Shown piece after piece: positions 776 to 7,269 of a DNA stretch of 64,000 nucleotides. Within the stretch, counting starts at the first letter, position 1, and each line of letters begins with the position of its first letter. The stretch is from Planctomycetia bacterium (GTDB lineage: Bacteria; Planctomycetota; Planctomycetia; Pirellulales; UBA1268). Where the stretch lies: positions 1 to 64,000 of the forward strand of contig BJHK01000011.1 of NCBI GenBank assembly GCA_014192425.1, in the 5' to 3' direction. The position numbers and the translations under genes are program-made. The notes below the pieces were generated by a model. The model was not told the DNA's origin and made no database searches. It worked only from the letters and a program-made list of their open reading frames with translations.

Positions 776-1984
776 TCAGCGCGACGTGCGGCCGAACGGG
801 CATCCCGGGGGAAGCAGGTTCGTCAGCCGGCCTGGATTCCCGCGGATGGTCAGGCTGTCGCGGCCCGCGTCCGGCTCGACCACGAGTTCGGCCGTGCAGC
901 CCTCGTCACGGCCGCGGCCGACGACGTGGATCTCCCAGCCGTCGCCGGACCGCGTCCAGATGCCCTCGGCGAACCGGCCGTCGGCCCCGAAGAACCACGA
1001 GCGGACGGCCCGGCTGTCTGGGTCCCAACCGATGACCTCCATGACCTCGCGCGGCTTCTGCGGCCCGGCGGGCAGGAGGCCTGGAATCCGTTGGTCGCCG
1101 TCGGCGGGCCGCAGTTCCGGCCCGCGATCGACCGCGACGGTGTGGGTGCGGACAAGGTACGAGCCGTCGCCTGCCCAGTCGCACAGCGTGCTCGCCGTCA
1201 CCCCCTGCCCCTCGTCCTCCCAGGAGCCGACGAGCCAGGCGAGGTGGTCGAGGTGATGCCGCGCCGTCTCCTCCAGCGCGGGCACCTTCCGGGCCGACTC
1301 GCGGACGTGCTCCAGCAGCCAGCGACCGTCGCGCTTGACCACCACGGCGGAGAACGTGCTGCCGGCCGGGGGGCTTGCGGCGAACGAGATCGTCGTCACC
1401 CCGTCGATCATCGCCACGTCGTCCGTCACGGGGCGGATCGCCGTGACGTCGAGGTCGATCACGGCCTCGTCATCGGCATGGAACAGGGCGGCGAACACCT
1501 GGCGCACGGACTCCCGTCCCGACGCGGTGACCACGCCCGCGTCGAGATCGTGATTCTCTCCCGTCGGACTCCAGTGGGAGGCGAGCGCCGCGGCGTCGTG
1601 CCGATTGAAGGCCCGGAGGTAGTCCCGCATCATGCCGCGGATCTCGCCGGCCGACGGGTGCTGGGCCGCCTGCCGCGTGGCCGGTGAACTGCCGTTGCCC
1701 GGCCGCGCTGCGGCCGCCGGCTGCGCGAGGAGCGGCATGGCGGGCGGCGTCGCGCCGGATGCATGGCGGACGTCGGCCTGGCGAACGTCGGCGTCTGCGA
1801 GACGGAATGCCCTCGGCCGGCTGGTCACGTCGGGTGGCCGGGAGACCCGGCTGGCCCGGGCCGCTTCGGCAGCCGGGGTGCCGCGACTGGCATCGTCGCG
1901 CCGGACCGTCGCCGAGGAGCAACCGGCGAGCAGACATGCCGCTGTGGCGATGAAGAACGGGGCTCGGATGGTGCGAATGGTCAT
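776..1984 (-). CDS. SnoaL-like (nuclear transport factor 2 fold) lipoprotein
   Basis: Predicted lipoprotein of 402 aa. The start at 1984 is chosen because it gives a clean lipoprotein signal (MTIRTIRAPFFIATAACLLAGCSS, lipobox LAGC with Cys at about 22); an upstream in-frame extension to 2206 has no signal character. After a low-complexity linker (about 23-130) comes a SnoaL/YybH-type domain starting DYLRAFNRHDAAALASHW, with the usual 'secreted ketosteroid isomerase-like' pattern. A second beta-rich domain follows from about residue 235 (LAWLVGSWEDE). The same two-domain layout and many residues (GSW/GDW, VIGWDP/RIGWDA, SWFFGADGRFAEG/SWTFDSDGGFSEG) recur in the protein at 9196-10284, so the two are paralogues. 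No catalytic function is evident. It shares a strand and is closely spaced with the BASS transporter gene. Confidence 0.8.
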   Translation of the reverse strand: MTIRTIRAPFFIATAACLLAGCSSATVRRDDASRGTPAAEAARASRVSRPPDVTSRPRAFRLADADVRQADVRHASGATPPAMPLLAQPAAAARPGNGSSPATRQAAQHPSAGEIRGMMRDYLRAFNRHDAAALASHWSPTGENHDLDAGVVTASGRESVRQVFAALFHADDEAVIDLDVTAIRPVTDDVAMIDGVTTISFAASPPAGSTFSAVVVKRDGRWLLEHVRESARKVPALEETARHHLDHLAWLVGSWEDEGQGVTASTLCDWAGDGSYLVRTHTVAVDRGPELRPADGDQRIPGLLPAGPQKPREVMEVIGWDPDSRAVRSWFFGADGRFAEGIWTRSGDGWEIHVVGRGRDEGCTAELVVEPDAGRDSLTIRGNPGRLTNLLPPGCPFGRTSR

Positions 1985-2195
1985 GGACGACGCTCCGTGT
2001 CGTGACCGAGGGGGGAAATGCCCTGCCCCGGGAACCCGGATCCTAGCCGCTCCTGCCTCTCGCGCACAGGGTCGCTGGCGCCGCTGGCAGCGCCCGGAAC
2101 GCGGCTCGCGTTTGCCCGACGGGACGGTAAGGTGGTCAGTGGGAGTGGTTCCGTCGCGGGATCGCGCCCGGACACCGGAAGCGAGGGAGCGGGTC

Positions 2196-4157
2196 ATGTC
2201 AACCAACGGACCAACGGCAGCACACGACGATCAATCCCACGGGGCCGAGACGGAAAAGTCTTCGGCCGGTGGTCCAGCCGGGGAGGAGAGCACCGCGTCG
2301 GCGATCTGGGTGCCTCTCATCGCGCTCGGCCTGCTCGGGGTCGCGATCTGGTTCGGCTCCACGCCGCTGACCGGTCCGGTGGTCGAGCCGGTGGTGCCGC
2401 CGCGGCCCGCGCCGGCGGCGGCCGTCGTCGATCCGCTGCCGAGCTGGAACGACGGCCCGGCGAAGAAGGCGATCCTCGACTTCGTCGCGGCCGTGACCCG
2501 CGAGGGGAGCGACACGTTCGTGCCCCCGGCCGAGCGGGTTGCCGTCTTCGATCACGACGGCACGCTGATCTGCGAGAAGCCGCTCGCCCACGGGATGTTC
2601 CTCGTCGATCGCATCCGTGCCCTCGCCGAGCGGCGGCCGGAGATCGCGGACGAGGAACCGTATGCAACGCTCCTCACCGGGGACTACGACCTCGTGCGCC
2701 GGCTGGGGCGACAGCAACTTGTCGAGCTGACCTTCGCCACGCTTGCCGGCGAGTCGCCGGAGCGGATCGAGGCGGATGCCATGGAGTTCATCCGCACCGC
2801 CCGCCATCCGTTGTTCGGCGTCCCGCTCGGGGAGACCTGCTACCAGCCGATGCGCGAGCTGATCCGGCTGCTCGAGGCGCGCGGGTTCGCGGTCTGGATC
2901 TGCTCGGGGAGCGGGCTGAACTTCCTCCGCCCGGCGTCCGCGGAATGGCACGGCATCGTCCCGGAGCGGGTGATTGCCTCCCGGCCGGCCACCAGCCTCC
3001 GGGAAGCGGCCGCCTCGGTCGGGGGTTCGGCCGGCGGCTCGGTCGAGGGGCAGGGGAGGGACCTGGAACTGGTCGTGCTCCCCGAACTGCGTGTGTTCAA
3101 CGACCGGGCACAAAAACCGGTCAGCATCGCGGAGCAGATCGGCAGGCGGCCGATCCTCGCGGCTGGCAACGTCGGCACCGGGGGGGACATCGAGATGCTC
3201 CGCTGGTCGCAGGGGGGCCCGCGCCCGGGCCTGCAACTGCTCGTCCTCCACGACGACGACGACCGTGAGATGGCCTACGGCGAGCCGCGGAGTGAGTCGC
3301 TGGAGGCGGCCGCGCGGCACGGCTGGCAGGTCGTCCGCATGAAGACCGACTGGAATCGCGTCTTCCCCCTGCCGCTCGCCAAGACGCTGGCCAAGACGCT
3401 GGCCAAGACGCTGGCCAAGACGGGCCCGACGGCGCCGCAGCAGGCCGTCGTCCCCTCCCCCCCGCCGGTCGCGCCGACCGCTGCCGCGCCGGCGCCGGCC
3501 CCGATGGCCGTCGAGGCCGCCCCGCCGACCCGCTGGGAGGAGGAACTGGCGGCGCTCACGGAGCGGGACCGGGCGGCCGCTCCGCGGACGGGGGGCATCT
3601 GCCTGCTCGGCTCGTCGAACATCAGCACGTGGCAGACGTTGGCCGAGGATTTTCCCGGGCTCGACGTCGTCAACCGGGGCGTGCCCGGCTGTCGGCTGAG
3701 CGAACTCGCCGACCATCTCGGGCCGTTGCTCGAGCCGGTCCGGCCGCGGCTGGTCGTCGTCGCCGCGGGGACGAACGACGTTGCCGATGGCCGGACTGCG
3801 GAGGAGGTGCAAGCGGCGTTCGCCCGGGTCGTCGAGGAGATCGGCCGCATCACGCCGGGGGCGCGGATCGTCTACCTGGGAATTTCCCCCACGCTGAAAC
3901 GCTGGGAGCAATGGCCGCGGCAGCAGGAGGCGAATGCCGCGATCCTGGCCTGGATCGACCGCAAGGCGACGCCCGATCCGGCGGCCGGTCCTGCCCGGGA
4001 CATCGTCTACCTCGACGCGGCAGCCGCCTTCCTCGGCGCCGACGGCCGGCCGGCCCCGGAGTGCTTCCTTGCCGACGGTCAGCATCCGAGCACGATCGGC
4101 AACGCCCGCCGCGCGGCGGTGATGCGGCCGGTGTTGGCGGACAGGCCGCAGAGGTGA
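2196..4157 (+). CDS. Membrane-anchored fusion of a HAD-superfamily phosphatase and an SGNH/GDSL hydrolase
   Basis: A 653-aa two-enzyme protein. Residues 36-55 form one membrane span, so the catalytic parts probably face the periplasm. The HAD domain (about 110-385) has motif I FDHDGT (nucleophile D119, acid D121), a motif II Ser in WICSGSG (S237), a Lys in AQKPVS (K307) and the acidic motif GNVGTGGDIEML (325-336). It resembles phosphoserine-phosphatase-like HADs with a large cap. A Pro/Ala linker and a 12-bp tandem repeat (LAKT x4, about 394-409) lead to an SGNH domain (about 466-650). That domain has all four blocks: LGSSNIS (Ser), RGVPG (Gly), AAGTND (Asn527) and DGQHPS (Asp627/His630). Both sites look intact. 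The start at 2196 precedes the transmembrane segment; upstream in-frame sequence is antisense to the neighbouring gene. The natural substrates are unknown. Confidence 0.8.
   Translation: MSTNGPTAAHDDQSHGAETEKSSAGGPAGEESTASAIWVPLIALGLLGVAIWFGSTPLTGPVVEPVVPPRPAPAAAVVDPLPSWNDGPAKKAILDFVAAVTREGSDTFVPPAERVAVFDHDGTLICEKPLAHGMFLVDRIRALAERRPEIADEEPYATLLTGDYDLVRRLGRQQLVELTFATLAGESPERIEADAMEFIRTARHPLFGVPLGETCYQPMRELIRLLEARGFAVWICSGSGLNFLRPASAEWHGIVPERVIASRPATSLREAAASVGGSAGGSVEGQGRDLELVVLPELRVFNDRAQKPVSIAEQIGRRPILAAGNVGTGGDIEMLRWSQGGPRPGLQLLVLHDDDDREMAYGEPRSESLEAAARHGWQVVRMKTDWNRVFPLPLAKTLAKTLAKTLAKTGPTAPQQAVVPSPPPVAPTAAAPAPAPMAVEAAPPTRWEEELAALTERDRAAAPRTGGICLLGSSNISTWQTLAEDFPGLDVVNRGVPGCRLSELADHLGPLLEPVRPRLVVVAAGTNDVADGRTAEEVQAAFARVVEEIGRITPGARIVYLGISPTLKRWEQWPRQQEANAAILAWIDRKATPDPAAGPARDIVYLDAAAAFLGADGRPAPECFLADGQHPSTIGNARRAAVMRPVLADRPQR
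3375..3422 (+). repeat. 12-bp tandem repeat x4, in frame
   Basis: Four consecutive 12-bp units, the last three identical (CTGGCCAAGACG) and the first differing by one base. They encode LAKT four times in the linker between the HAD and SGNH domains. The perfect identity suggests recent slippage. Confidence 0.9.
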
Positions 4158-4190: not shown

Positions 4191-5075
4191 ATGGCCGACG
4201 CGGCGGAGACGGGTACGACAGGGCTCGACGGCTGGATCGGCCGCGTCGCCGGGGGCGAGTGGCTGACGTTCCTGCCGGCCACGCTGCGTGAGCCGGCCGC
4301 CCGCGGCCTGCTCCAGGTGGCGGCCGCGGCGGCGGTGCTCCTGCTCTTCGCCCCGCTGGCCGACTCGCGCGGCGATGCCTACATGGAGGCGACCTTCGCC
4401 CGCACGCTCGCGGCGCTCGCCGCCACCCGCGGGCTCGACAGCGCGATCTCGCTCGCCCAGAGTTCGGAGGTGAGTTTCAGTTTCGGGCCCGGGGGGAGCA
4501 TCGGCATCGGCCAGGCGCTCGATCCGGTCAACGATCTCGTCGAGCAGTACGGGGCGCTGCTGCTCACGAGCACGACGGCACTCGGCGTGCAGCGTCTCGG
4601 CATGCAGATCGGGCGGACGCTCGGCTGGTGGCTGTTCGTGCCGGGGTTCGTGGCGCTCGTCGGAGCCGCCGTCTGCGCCGGCCGGTCGCGGACGTCGCTC
4701 ATGGGCTGGAGCTGGCGGCTGTTCGGCGTGGCCCTGTTCGCCCGGCTCGCCCTCCCGACGGCGGGCTGGATCGATTCCTGGGTGGCCGAGCGGTTCCTGG
4801 AAACCGGCTACCAGCAGGCCGCGGCGGCCGTCAGCGCCACCACGCAGACCATCGAGCAGGTGGAGGCGAGCGACGCGAAGCGGCCCTGGTACGAGCGCTA
4901 CAACCCGGTCGACGCGCTCGGCGACAAGGCCCGTCGGCTCTACGAGTCGCTGGCCGCGGTGGGAGAGTCGATCGTCAACCTCGCCATTTACTTCACGATC
5001 TCCACGATCGTGCTCCCCGTGGGGACGCTCTGGCTCCTCTCCCGGCTCGTGGGGGCCCTGTTCAGGCCGGGGTAA
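4191..5075 (+). CDS. Multi-span membrane protein of unknown function
   Basis: A 294-aa protein with no family I can name. Hydrophobic segments are visible at about 41-57 (VAAAAAVLLLFAPL), about 144-163 (LGWWLFVPGFVALVGAAVCA), about 172-190 and near the C-terminus (about 262-286, NLAIYFTISTIVLPVGTLWLL). A soluble section of about 80 residues follows the first span, and a charged helix (about 215-250) precedes the last span. The gene starts 33 nt after the HAD/SGNH fusion with a GGAGGG-like ribosome site just upstream (4177-4185), so the two may form an operon. The long AT-rich leader of the YTV gene follows it. No catalytic motif is seen. Confidence 0.7.
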   Translation: MADAAETGTTGLDGWIGRVAGGEWLTFLPATLREPAARGLLQVAAAAAVLLLFAPLADSRGDAYMEATFARTLAALAATRGLDSAISLAQSSEVSFSFGPGGSIGIGQALDPVNDLVEQYGALLLTSTTALGVQRLGMQIGRTLGWWLFVPGFVALVGAAVCAGRSRTSLMGWSWRLFGVALFARLALPTAGWIDSWVAERFLETGYQQAAAAVSATTQTIEQVEASDAKRPWYERYNPVDALGDKARRLYESLAAVGESIVNLAIYFTISTIVLPVGTLWLLSRLVGALFRPG

Positions 5076-5333
5076 CCGACGTTCCACCGGGGCGGGTTTC
5101 CGCCCGGCCGACCCCACATTCTGGCGGGAAAGCGTGGGCGTTTCACCAAGTGTCGCTCGGACCGGCCGGGCTGTGGTCATGCCAAACGAACGATTTTCCG
5201 CGGTTGAGGCTTGTTTTGACGGAAACGAGGGGAGGCAAAAAATCCCCCATCAGCTTTTCCCCGGCCCCTTGCATGCCGGTTTAGTCAACGTAATCTATCC
5301 ATCTTATCAGGCGGCCGAGTCATTCGGTCGTCA

Positions 5334-5369
5334 GAAGAGAAGGGTCTCTTCGACCGACCGAACGTTCGG
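5334..5369 (+). promoter_or_regulatory. Hairpin and 12-bp palindrome in the YTV-gene leader
   Basis: The 358-nt gap before the YTV gene (5076-5433) is clearly less GC-rich than its surroundings from about 5200. It contains a 6-bp hairpin (GAAGAG at 5334-5339, CTCTTC at 5346-5351) and, just downstream, the perfect 12-bp palindrome CCGAACGTTCGG (5358-5369). Either could be an operator or leader structure. No convincing sigma-70 -35/-10 pair was found, so the promoter itself is not placed. Confidence 0.35.
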
Positions 5370-5433
5370 GCGCGTTCGAAAAAACCTGCTCGGGTTTTCT
5401 GGTTTCCGTTCCTTTTTTTCCTTGGAGGTCTGC

Positions 5434-7269
5434 GTGATTCGCAAAGTTCTTTCCTGCCTGATGCCGGCCTGTGCCGTCGTCGCCCTGTGCACGAGCACGT
5501 GGGCGGCTGACTGCGGTGCCTGCGACGGCGGCTGTGCCGGTGGCTGCGAGAGCGGCGCCGTCGTCAGCGGTGGTTGTGAGGGTGGTTGTGGTGGTGCCTC
5601 CGCCGGCGCGGCCTGCGGCGGTACCAAGACGGTGTATCAGCGGCAGTACGTGACCGAGATGAAGACGGTCACGTCGACTGAGTACACCACCGAGACCCGC
5701 GAGCGGACCTACACGGTCACGAAGCGGGTTCCGCGGACCGAGACGAAGACCCGCACGGTCACCGTGCAGGTTCCCGAGACTCGGACCAAGACCGTGAACT
5801 ACACGGTCAACAAGAACGTGACGGAGACCAAGACGGCGGAGTACACCGTCCAGGTCCCGTACACCGAGGAGGTCGAGCAGACCTACACGGTTCACGTTCC
5901 GGTGTCCGAGGAGAAGACCGCGACCTACACGGTCATGGTTCCGAAGCAGGAAGAGAAGACCTCGACCTACTCGGTCCAGGTTCCCTACACCGAGGAGGTC
6001 GAGCAGACCTACACGGTGATGGTGCCCGTGTCGGAGGAGAAGTCCGCGTCCTACACGGTCCAGGTCCCGTACACCGAAGAGGTCGAGCAGACCTACACGG
6101 TGAACGTCCCGGTCCAGGAACAGAAGACCGCCACCTACACGGTGATGGTGCCCTACACCGAGGAGAAGGTTTCGACCTACACGGTGAAGGTTCCCTACAC
6201 CGAGCAGGTCGAGCAGACCTACACGGTGAACGTTCCCTACACCGAGCAGGTGACCCACACCCACAAGGTGCAGAAGCGGGTCCCGGTCCAGGGCACGAAG
6301 ACGGTGCAGGTCCGTGGCGGTCACTGGGAGACGCAGCAGGTCGAGGTCGGTGGCGGCGTCGACGCCAACGGCTGCCCCTGCCCGTCGAAGACCTGCTGCA
6401 AGCGGGTCTGGGTTCCCACGTGTGAGACCAAGGAAGTCCCCGTCACCACCTACGAGTGCGTGACCGAGGAGGTTCCCCACACGGTGAACGTGACCAAGTG
6501 CCGTCCGGAGCAGCGGAGCCGGATGGTCAGCGTGTCCAAGTGCCGTGACGAGGAGCGCACCCGGACCTACACGGTCACGAAGTGCCGCCCCGAGGAGCGG
6601 ACCCGGTCCTACACGGTCACCAAGTACGTGCCGGAGACGAAGAGCCGCAAGGTCTCCGTCACCAAGTACCGTGCCGAGGAGAAGACTCGGACGTACACGG
6701 TCACCAAGCACGTGCCGGAGACGAAGAGCCGCAAGGTCTCCGTCACCAAGTACCGTGCCGAGGAGCGGACCCGCAACTACACCGTCACGACCTGCGTGCC
6801 GGAGCAGCGGACCCGGACCTACACGGTCACCAAGCACGTTCCGGAGCAGAAGAGCCGGAAGGTGAGCGTCACCAAGTACAAGGCCGAGACCAAGACTCGG
6901 GAGTACCAGGTGACCAAGTGCGTGCCCGAGACGATGACCAAGGAGGTCTCGTACACGGTCATGGTCCCGCAGCAGAAGGAAGAGTCGTTCACCGTGACGG
7001 TGTATGACTCCGTCCCCGAGACGAAGACCGAGAGCTACTCGGTCCGCGTCCCCCACACGGTGACGAAGGAAGTGCCGGTGCAGAAGTGCGTCACGGTCGC
7101 CGTCGAGGTGGCTGCTGACGGCTGCGGTGCCGGTGCCGACGGTGCCGGCGCTGCCGGCGGCGAAGGTGCCTGCGGCGGCTGCGGCGACGCGGGTGCCGGT
7201 GGTGCTGCCGCCGGTGACTGCGGTGGCAAGGCGAAGGGCTGCCGTCGTGGCTGCCGTCGCTGCAAGTAA
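5434..7269 (+). CDS. Cysteine-rich YTV-repeat protein, planctomycete cell-envelope type
   Basis: An exported 611-aa structural protein. The GTG at 5434 is chosen: GGAGG sits at 5424-5428 with 5-nt spacing, and a signal peptide follows (about residues 1-24, ending in STWAA). The mature protein begins with a Cys/Gly-rich stretch (CGACDGGCAGGC...). It continues with dozens of short repeats built on (T/S)YTV, alternating with charged segments such as VPYTEEVEQT and VPETKSRKVSVTKY. It is broken by a Cys cluster near residue 310-325 (CPCPSKTCCKRV) and closes with another Cys-rich, then basic tail (GCRRGCRRCK). YTV domains with Cys-rich ends are known from planctomycete envelope proteins such as those of Rhodopirellula. 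The beta-strand repeats plus cysteines imply a disulphide-linked scaffold (inference). It is monocistronic, with its own leader and terminator. Confidence 0.88.
   Translation: MIRKVLSCLMPACAVVALCTSTWAADCGACDGGCAGGCESGAVVSGGCEGGCGGASAGAACGGTKTVYQRQYVTEMKTVTSTEYTTETRERTYTVTKRVPRTETKTRTVTVQVPETRTKTVNYTVNKNVTETKTAEYTVQVPYTEEVEQTYTVHVPVSEEKTATYTVMVPKQEEKTSTYSVQVPYTEEVEQTYTVMVPVSEEKSASYTVQVPYTEEVEQTYTVNVPVQEQKTATYTVMVPYTEEKVSTYTVKVPYTEQVEQTYTVNVPYTEQVTHTHKVQKRVPVQGTKTVQVRGGHWETQQVEVGGGVDANGCPCPSKTCCKRVWVPTCETKEVPVTTYECVTEEVPHTVNVTKCRPEQRSRMVSVSKCRDEERTRTYTVTKCRPEERTRSYTVTKYVPETKSRKVSVTKYRAEEKTRTYTVTKHVPETKSRKVSVTKYRAEERTRNYTVTTCVPEQRTRTYTVTKHVPEQKSRKVSVTKYKAETKTREYQVTKCVPETMTKEVSYTVMVPQQKEESFTVTVYDSVPETKTESYSVRVPHTVTKEVPVQKCVTVAVEVAADGCGAGADGAGAAGGEGACGGCGDAGAGGAAAGDCGGKAKGCRRGCRRCK

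Follow-up and report, generated by a model that had tools for sequence, protein, structure and literature searches.

A membrane-anchored fusion of HAD and SGNH hydrolase domains in a group of Planctomycetota

The closest solved relative of the phosphatase half of the protein described here is PDB 4ovy, a HAD hydrolase of Planctopirus (Planctomyces) limnophila, on which a PMC literature search found no paper. A second HAD phosphatase of similar fold, the phosphorylcholine phosphatase PchP of Pseudomonas aeruginosa (4as2), is made with a signal peptide, and E42, E43 and Y82-84 are reported as its choline-binding residues (PMC3170909). On the esterase side, the sialic acid 9-O-acetylesterase PvSAE of Phocaeicola vulgatus (7pzg/7pzh, 6njc, 6xpg) uses a Ser/Gly/Asn/Asp/His set (PMC9063846), and the same set occurs in our protein. 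The platelet-activating factor (PAF) acetylhydrolase (1wab family), which shares the SGNH fold, is a mammalian enzyme from a different setting. Here, we describe a gene that joins both kinds of hydrolase on one chain. It lies in the window, the whole stretch of 64,000 nucleotides of a Planctomycetia bacterium that was analyzed (contig BJHK01000011.1, positions 1 to 64,000).

Architecture, folds and active sites

The fusion gene (2196..4157, + strand) is an open reading frame of 653 codons for amino acids, found exactly where the first-pass annotation had placed it, and is supported by Pfam and by the search of family genomes. An in-frame ATG occurs upstream at 1632, yet the aligned relatives begin near 2196. 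Hydropathy analysis gives one peak, at aa 36-54 (2301..2357, +), which is also present in 16/16 full-length rows of alignment A1; the single membrane span claimed for the protein is thus predicted here as well. The preceding tail, aa 1-35, is modelled as disordered (pLDDT <50) and is acidic, with one K/R against six D/E, so the positive-inside rule provides no support for an N-in/C-out topology.

Beyond the span lie a HAD phosphatase domain (aa 79-391; 2430..3368, +), a variable linker rich in Pro and Ala (aa 392-444; 3369..3527, +) and an SGNH/GDSL hydrolase domain (aa 445-650; 3528..4145, +), both domains being assigned by Pfam, model and alignment. The HAD domain matches PF12710 at aa 116-264 (E 8.8e-10; score 39.8 bits, cut-off 27), and the SGNH domain matches PF13472, Lipase_GDSL_2, at aa 479-637 (E 1.1e-16; score 62.3 bits, cut-off 32.9). 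The linker varies freely in length and sequence among relatives. In the window it contains a 12-bp tandem repeat in four copies (3373-3422) encoding LAKT units.

An AlphaFold2 model of the fusion, built from the 49-row alignment A2, has a mean pLDDT of 82.9 and a pTM of 0.60, with the HAD and SGNH domains mostly above 90. Residues 409-431 and 1-63 fall below 50, and for the latter reason the model is no test of the membrane span. The first-pass annotation had allowed that one domain might lack its fold in structure prediction; instead, both are modelled confidently and both find structural matches. The HAD domain aligns with 4ovy at Z 35.7 over 298 residues with 44% identity (VIA-align; Foldseek), and aa 79-391 match the 4ovy sequence at E 8.8e-68. 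Within a VIA-align ranking that speaks for the listed families only, the SGNH domain aligns best with the sialic acid/sialate O-acetylesterases 7pzh/6xpm (Z about 24), followed by the PAF acetylhydrolase 1wab (Z 22.7); Foldseek placed the domain with these structures as well.

Both catalytic sites are complete on the one chain, in line with what had been proposed from the sequence. The HAD domain carries the superfamily's DxD motif I (D119, D121), the S/T of motif II (S237), the K of motif III (K307) and the acidic motif IV (D331). In the SGNH domain, Ser, Gly, Asn and His stand in blocks I, II, III and V, with an Asp three residues before the His, and S474, G495, N527, D627 and H630 are each present in 24/24 fusion rows. 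Across the same rows, D119 is invariant (24/24), S237 is retained in 22/24 with T in the two others, and K307 and D331 are found in 23/24, the exception being a gap in a frame-broken copy. D121 is kept in 23/24. The remaining row, G034 (L017), has E at this position within an otherwise intact fusion. The catalytic HAD residues are also kept in four related proteins that consist of the span and the HAD domain only.

Distribution, locus and modular history

The full-length fusion occurs in one frame in 23/72 genomes of this Planctomycetota family, many of which are drafts, so that absences weigh little. By genus, intact copies were found in 12/22 genomes of the window's own genus, 2/4 of g4, 1/1 of g5, 4/5 of g8 and 4/6 of g12. 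Among the other family genomes, four are HAD-only and one copy is cut by a contig end (G004). In G063 (L155), the fusion is broken into two frames. The pieces in G061, labelled 'split' in our trees, lie in a single 609-codon frame, and only G063 is truly split.

Among the best 80 of at least 536 relatives, 11 cover both HAD and SGNH (L063-L071, L073 and L075, the last frame-broken), all of them planctomycete records. In a search of 392 phylum genomes with a cut-off of E 1e-60, a further 43 gave matches, every one of them confined to the HAD part; this cut-off could miss distant SGNH-only matches, though not close fusions. A widely shared architecture is thereby ruled out, and no HAD+SGNH fusion was found outside this Planctomycetota group among the genomes examined. 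The PMC literature search likewise returned no paper on a membrane-tethered HAD+SGNH protein, which agrees with the first-pass annotation's remark that it knew of no described enzyme with this domain order. The available portions of PMC6461901, on freshwater Planctomycetes genomes, and of PMC5512079, on EstA, contain nothing on the fusion protein.

The surroundings of the gene are conserved. In the tblastn neighbour map, genes for a SnoaL-like protein and a SIAE/SASA esterase run divergently, followed by the fusion and then, in many genomes, by memb7 and a YTV-repeat protein. In the window, Pfam and the map identify the divergent SnoaL-like gene at 776..2206 (-) and the YTV-repeat (PF07639) gene at 5134..7269 (+); YTV proteins have been reported from planctomycete cell-wall preparations (PMC8567305). 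The SIAE gene (PF03629 acetylesterase) lies between the SnoaL gene and the fusion in most relatives. It is absent at the window locus, and the sole counterpart in the genome from which the window comes is a 40% paralogue.

The gene memb7 (4191..5075, +) begins 33 bases downstream of the fusion and encodes a family-restricted membrane protein without a Pfam family. It adjoins span-SGNH genes and many fusions in the same direction. It is highly conserved, being present in 30/72 family genomes with 0/5 in g8, and a search of 293 other phylum genomes found none apart from one weak match. A structure prediction for memb7, based on 3 sequences, has a mean pLDDT of 63.9.

Single-domain versions of the gene occupy the same locus. 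In 10 genomes (genera g2, g7 and g11), the SGNH gene lacks the HAD; where the N-terminus was read (L162, L166, L180 and L181), it starts with a membrane span, hydropathy having been computed for three of them. In G012, G014, G020 and G084, the span and HAD are present without the SGNH domain. The two activities are therefore separable.

In an SGNH tree of 45 rows, rooted on SGNH proteins from outside the locus, the 24 fusion rows make up a single clade, with support of 97/92, that lies within the span-SGNH rows, while monophyly of the SGNH-only rows is not rejected (p-AU 0.137). In a HAD tree of 43 rows, the anchored HADs form one clade apart from the free HADs (100/100), and the HAD-only rows branch at three separate positions between fusion rows; constraining the HAD-only rows together gave p-AU 0.033, and constraining all fusions together gave p-AU 0.042. 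These trees favour, as the simplest history, one insertion of the HAD into an older span-SGNH gene, followed by about three losses of the SGNH domain. In trees of SIAE and memb7, no branch separated the genomes with an anchored HAD from the others, and together with the p-AU of 0.137 this makes secondary loss of the HAD in g7 and g11 a possible alternative.

A diverged HAD subfamily and its free relatives

By sequence and whole-domain fold, the fusion HAD belongs to the 4ovy family, but it lacks several of the residues common there. W125, Q132, H183, W198 and G239 are found in 49-51/51 free HADs and are absent from the 28 anchored HADs, in which the commonest replacement at each of the five positions occurs in 21-28/28. 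N120 and other positions are near-invariant in free HADs and replaced in anchored ones, N120 being retained in 4/28. The same comparison of 28 anchored with 51 free HADs shows residues added at 326-328 in the anchored group, beside motif IV. Consistent with the 100/100 separation in the HAD tree, these differences support the view that anchored HADs are a diverged sister subfamily of the free 4ovy-type HADs. From their closeness to motifs I, II and IV, the replaced residues appear to belong to the substrate shell. Since the catalytic residues are kept while near-invariant neighbours are replaced, the substrate of the anchored HAD has probably changed.

Free 4ovy-type HADs occur in many phyla among the matches listed, and show hydrophobic leaders when read by eye. 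Of the 67 free-HAD loci (L076-L142), six without an open reading frame under the motif were dropped, leaving 61. The free HAD gene often lies directly downstream of a sulfatase gene of the C-T-A/P-G-R type: a sulfatase with the pattern C/S-T-A/P-G-R was found within 600 bp at 26/61 loci, on the same strand in 25/26. This pattern was designed after the sequences had been seen, and independent support comes from a Pfam scan of 83 of 115 neighbouring proteins, hand-picked with longer ones preferred, in which PF00884 sulfatases account for 24/83 adjacent proteins and FGE-sulfatase for 5/83. A C-x-P-S-R type sulfatase pattern was found in 2/117 ORFs adjacent to free HADs. Three free HADs (L078:3670-5268, L082:7914-9563 and L113:4345-6111) have a C-terminal match to PF13563, a 2'-5' RNA ligase/2H phosphoesterase-like family; two of these matches score under the curated cut-off. 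This HAD family would thus seem to partner another hydrolase repeatedly, the SGNH fusion being a further case.

Within the family genomes, a free HAD is present in 3/29 genomes with an anchored HAD versus 21/43 without one (Fisher p 8e-4, ignoring kinship). The anchored HAD may have replaced the free one.

Proposed function and comparison with known systems

We propose, at a probability of about one half, that the protein is a double hydrolase tethered to the membrane and most likely facing outward, in which a phosphomonoesterase and an O-deacylase work side by side on glycan material. The single span would anchor two independently folded enzymes joined by the flexible Pro/Ala linker. Following established HAD and SGNH mechanisms, Asp119 would attack the phosphate with Asp121 as general acid/base, Ser237 and Lys307 would hold the phosphate and Asp331 the metal, whereas the SGNH domain would act as a serine esterase with a Ser474-His630-Asp627 triad and an oxyanion hole formed by Gly495 and Asn527. 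The fold and the neighbouring SIAE gene suggest that this esterase is most likely an O-deacetylase, and the leaders seen in free relatives, together with the YTV neighbour, point to export. Both domains would trim phosphate and acyl groups off a glycan or glycolipid, either envelope-located or foraged, each acting independently and with no obligatory two-step reaction. The origin of the gene would lie in a single freshwater planctomycete lineage, with a HAD entering the older span-SGNH gene, after which the HAD substrate shell would have been rewired and the SGNH domain lost several times.

The first-pass annotation had suggested sequential action on a single envelope substrate, for instance a glycan bearing phosphate and acyl groups. 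In a fuller form of this scheme, the substrate could be such a glycan or a glycolipid, and the tether would channel the intermediate from one domain to the other. Retention of both sites in intact fusions, persistence of the fusion across five genera and the third esterase gene adjoining it in most relatives are compatible with this. However, the 10 span-SGNH-only and four span-HAD-only relatives at the locus argue against obligate two-step action, and a linker so free in length and sequence is unlike a channelling interface, so that we regard sequential action as unlikely and do not uphold it in its obligate form. Similarly doubtful is a bifunctional envelope enzyme, with the HAD inserted between anchor and SGNH and its pocket rewired, that would strip phosphate and acyl groups off one surface polymer of YTV-type envelopes. 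Recycling of phospholipids or lysophospholipids, by a PAF-acetylhydrolase- or lysophospholipase-like SGNH domain and a phosphocholine-type HAD phosphatase, would account for the structural match to the PAF acetylhydrolase noted above, for that to 4as2 (Z 19.6) and for a profile match of the HAD to 4as2 (E 3.8e-4). Sialic acid/sialate O-acetylesterases nevertheless fit the SGNH domain equally well or slightly better, Z differences of 1-2 being small, and the divergent neighbour in most relatives is a glycan-esterase-type rather than a lipid gene, which makes this reading rather improbable.

The rewired shell might also reflect a phosphatase activity that has been altered or lost. In that case the HAD would serve as a binding or structural module or catalyze another reaction, leaving the SGNH domain as the working enzyme, as the many replaced near-motif residues and the D121 to E change in G034 might suggest. 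Yet no intact fusion row has lost D119, K307 or D331, the catalytic residues persist in the four HAD-only proteins, and the HAD is the very part that survives SGNH loss; we judge such repurposing improbable. Finally, the split copy in G063 might recall an assembly artefact, a frame error or a chance ORF, but the 23 intact family genomes rule this out, with same-locus synteny across many separate assemblies making it negligible as an explanation.

The fusion offers a natural and well-sampled case of two unrelated hydrolases merged on one membrane tether. Three forms persist at a single locus among related genomes: the ancestor-like span-SGNH, the fusion itself and the reduced span-HAD. Should its activities be confirmed, uncultured Planctomycetota of lakes, a group with little-described envelope chemistry, would be expected to have phosphorylated and acylated material in their envelope or their diet. 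The fusion also offers a way into a widespread family of putatively exported HADs that adjoins sulfatases in many phyla.

FkbH-type proteins, which comprise a HAD-IIIC domain and an SGNH-like region, also pair HAD-like with SGNH-like domains, but their domain order and HAD subclass are unlike those of the fusion, and they are cytosolic glyceryl-ACP enzymes. No FkbH-type model was reported when the protein was scanned against the Pfam and NCBIfam sets (E up to 0.1), which may or may not include one.

Compared with the solved enzymes, PvSAE has the same SGNH fold (Z about 23-24) at about 20% identity, its solved chains being single SGNH domains of ~200 residues with no HAD; the PAF acetylhydrolase is 24% identical; and PchP shares the HAD fold at 21% identity and an rmsd of 3.8, without an SGNH partner. 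With identities of about 20%, these are matches of fold and would not by themselves set the substrates. The catalytic motifs of 4ovy and of the fusion HAD are common to both. 4ovy is a HAD alone, whereas the anchored HADs add a membrane span and mostly a C-terminal SGNH domain, and differ from its family at the five replaced positions and by the extra residues at 326-328.
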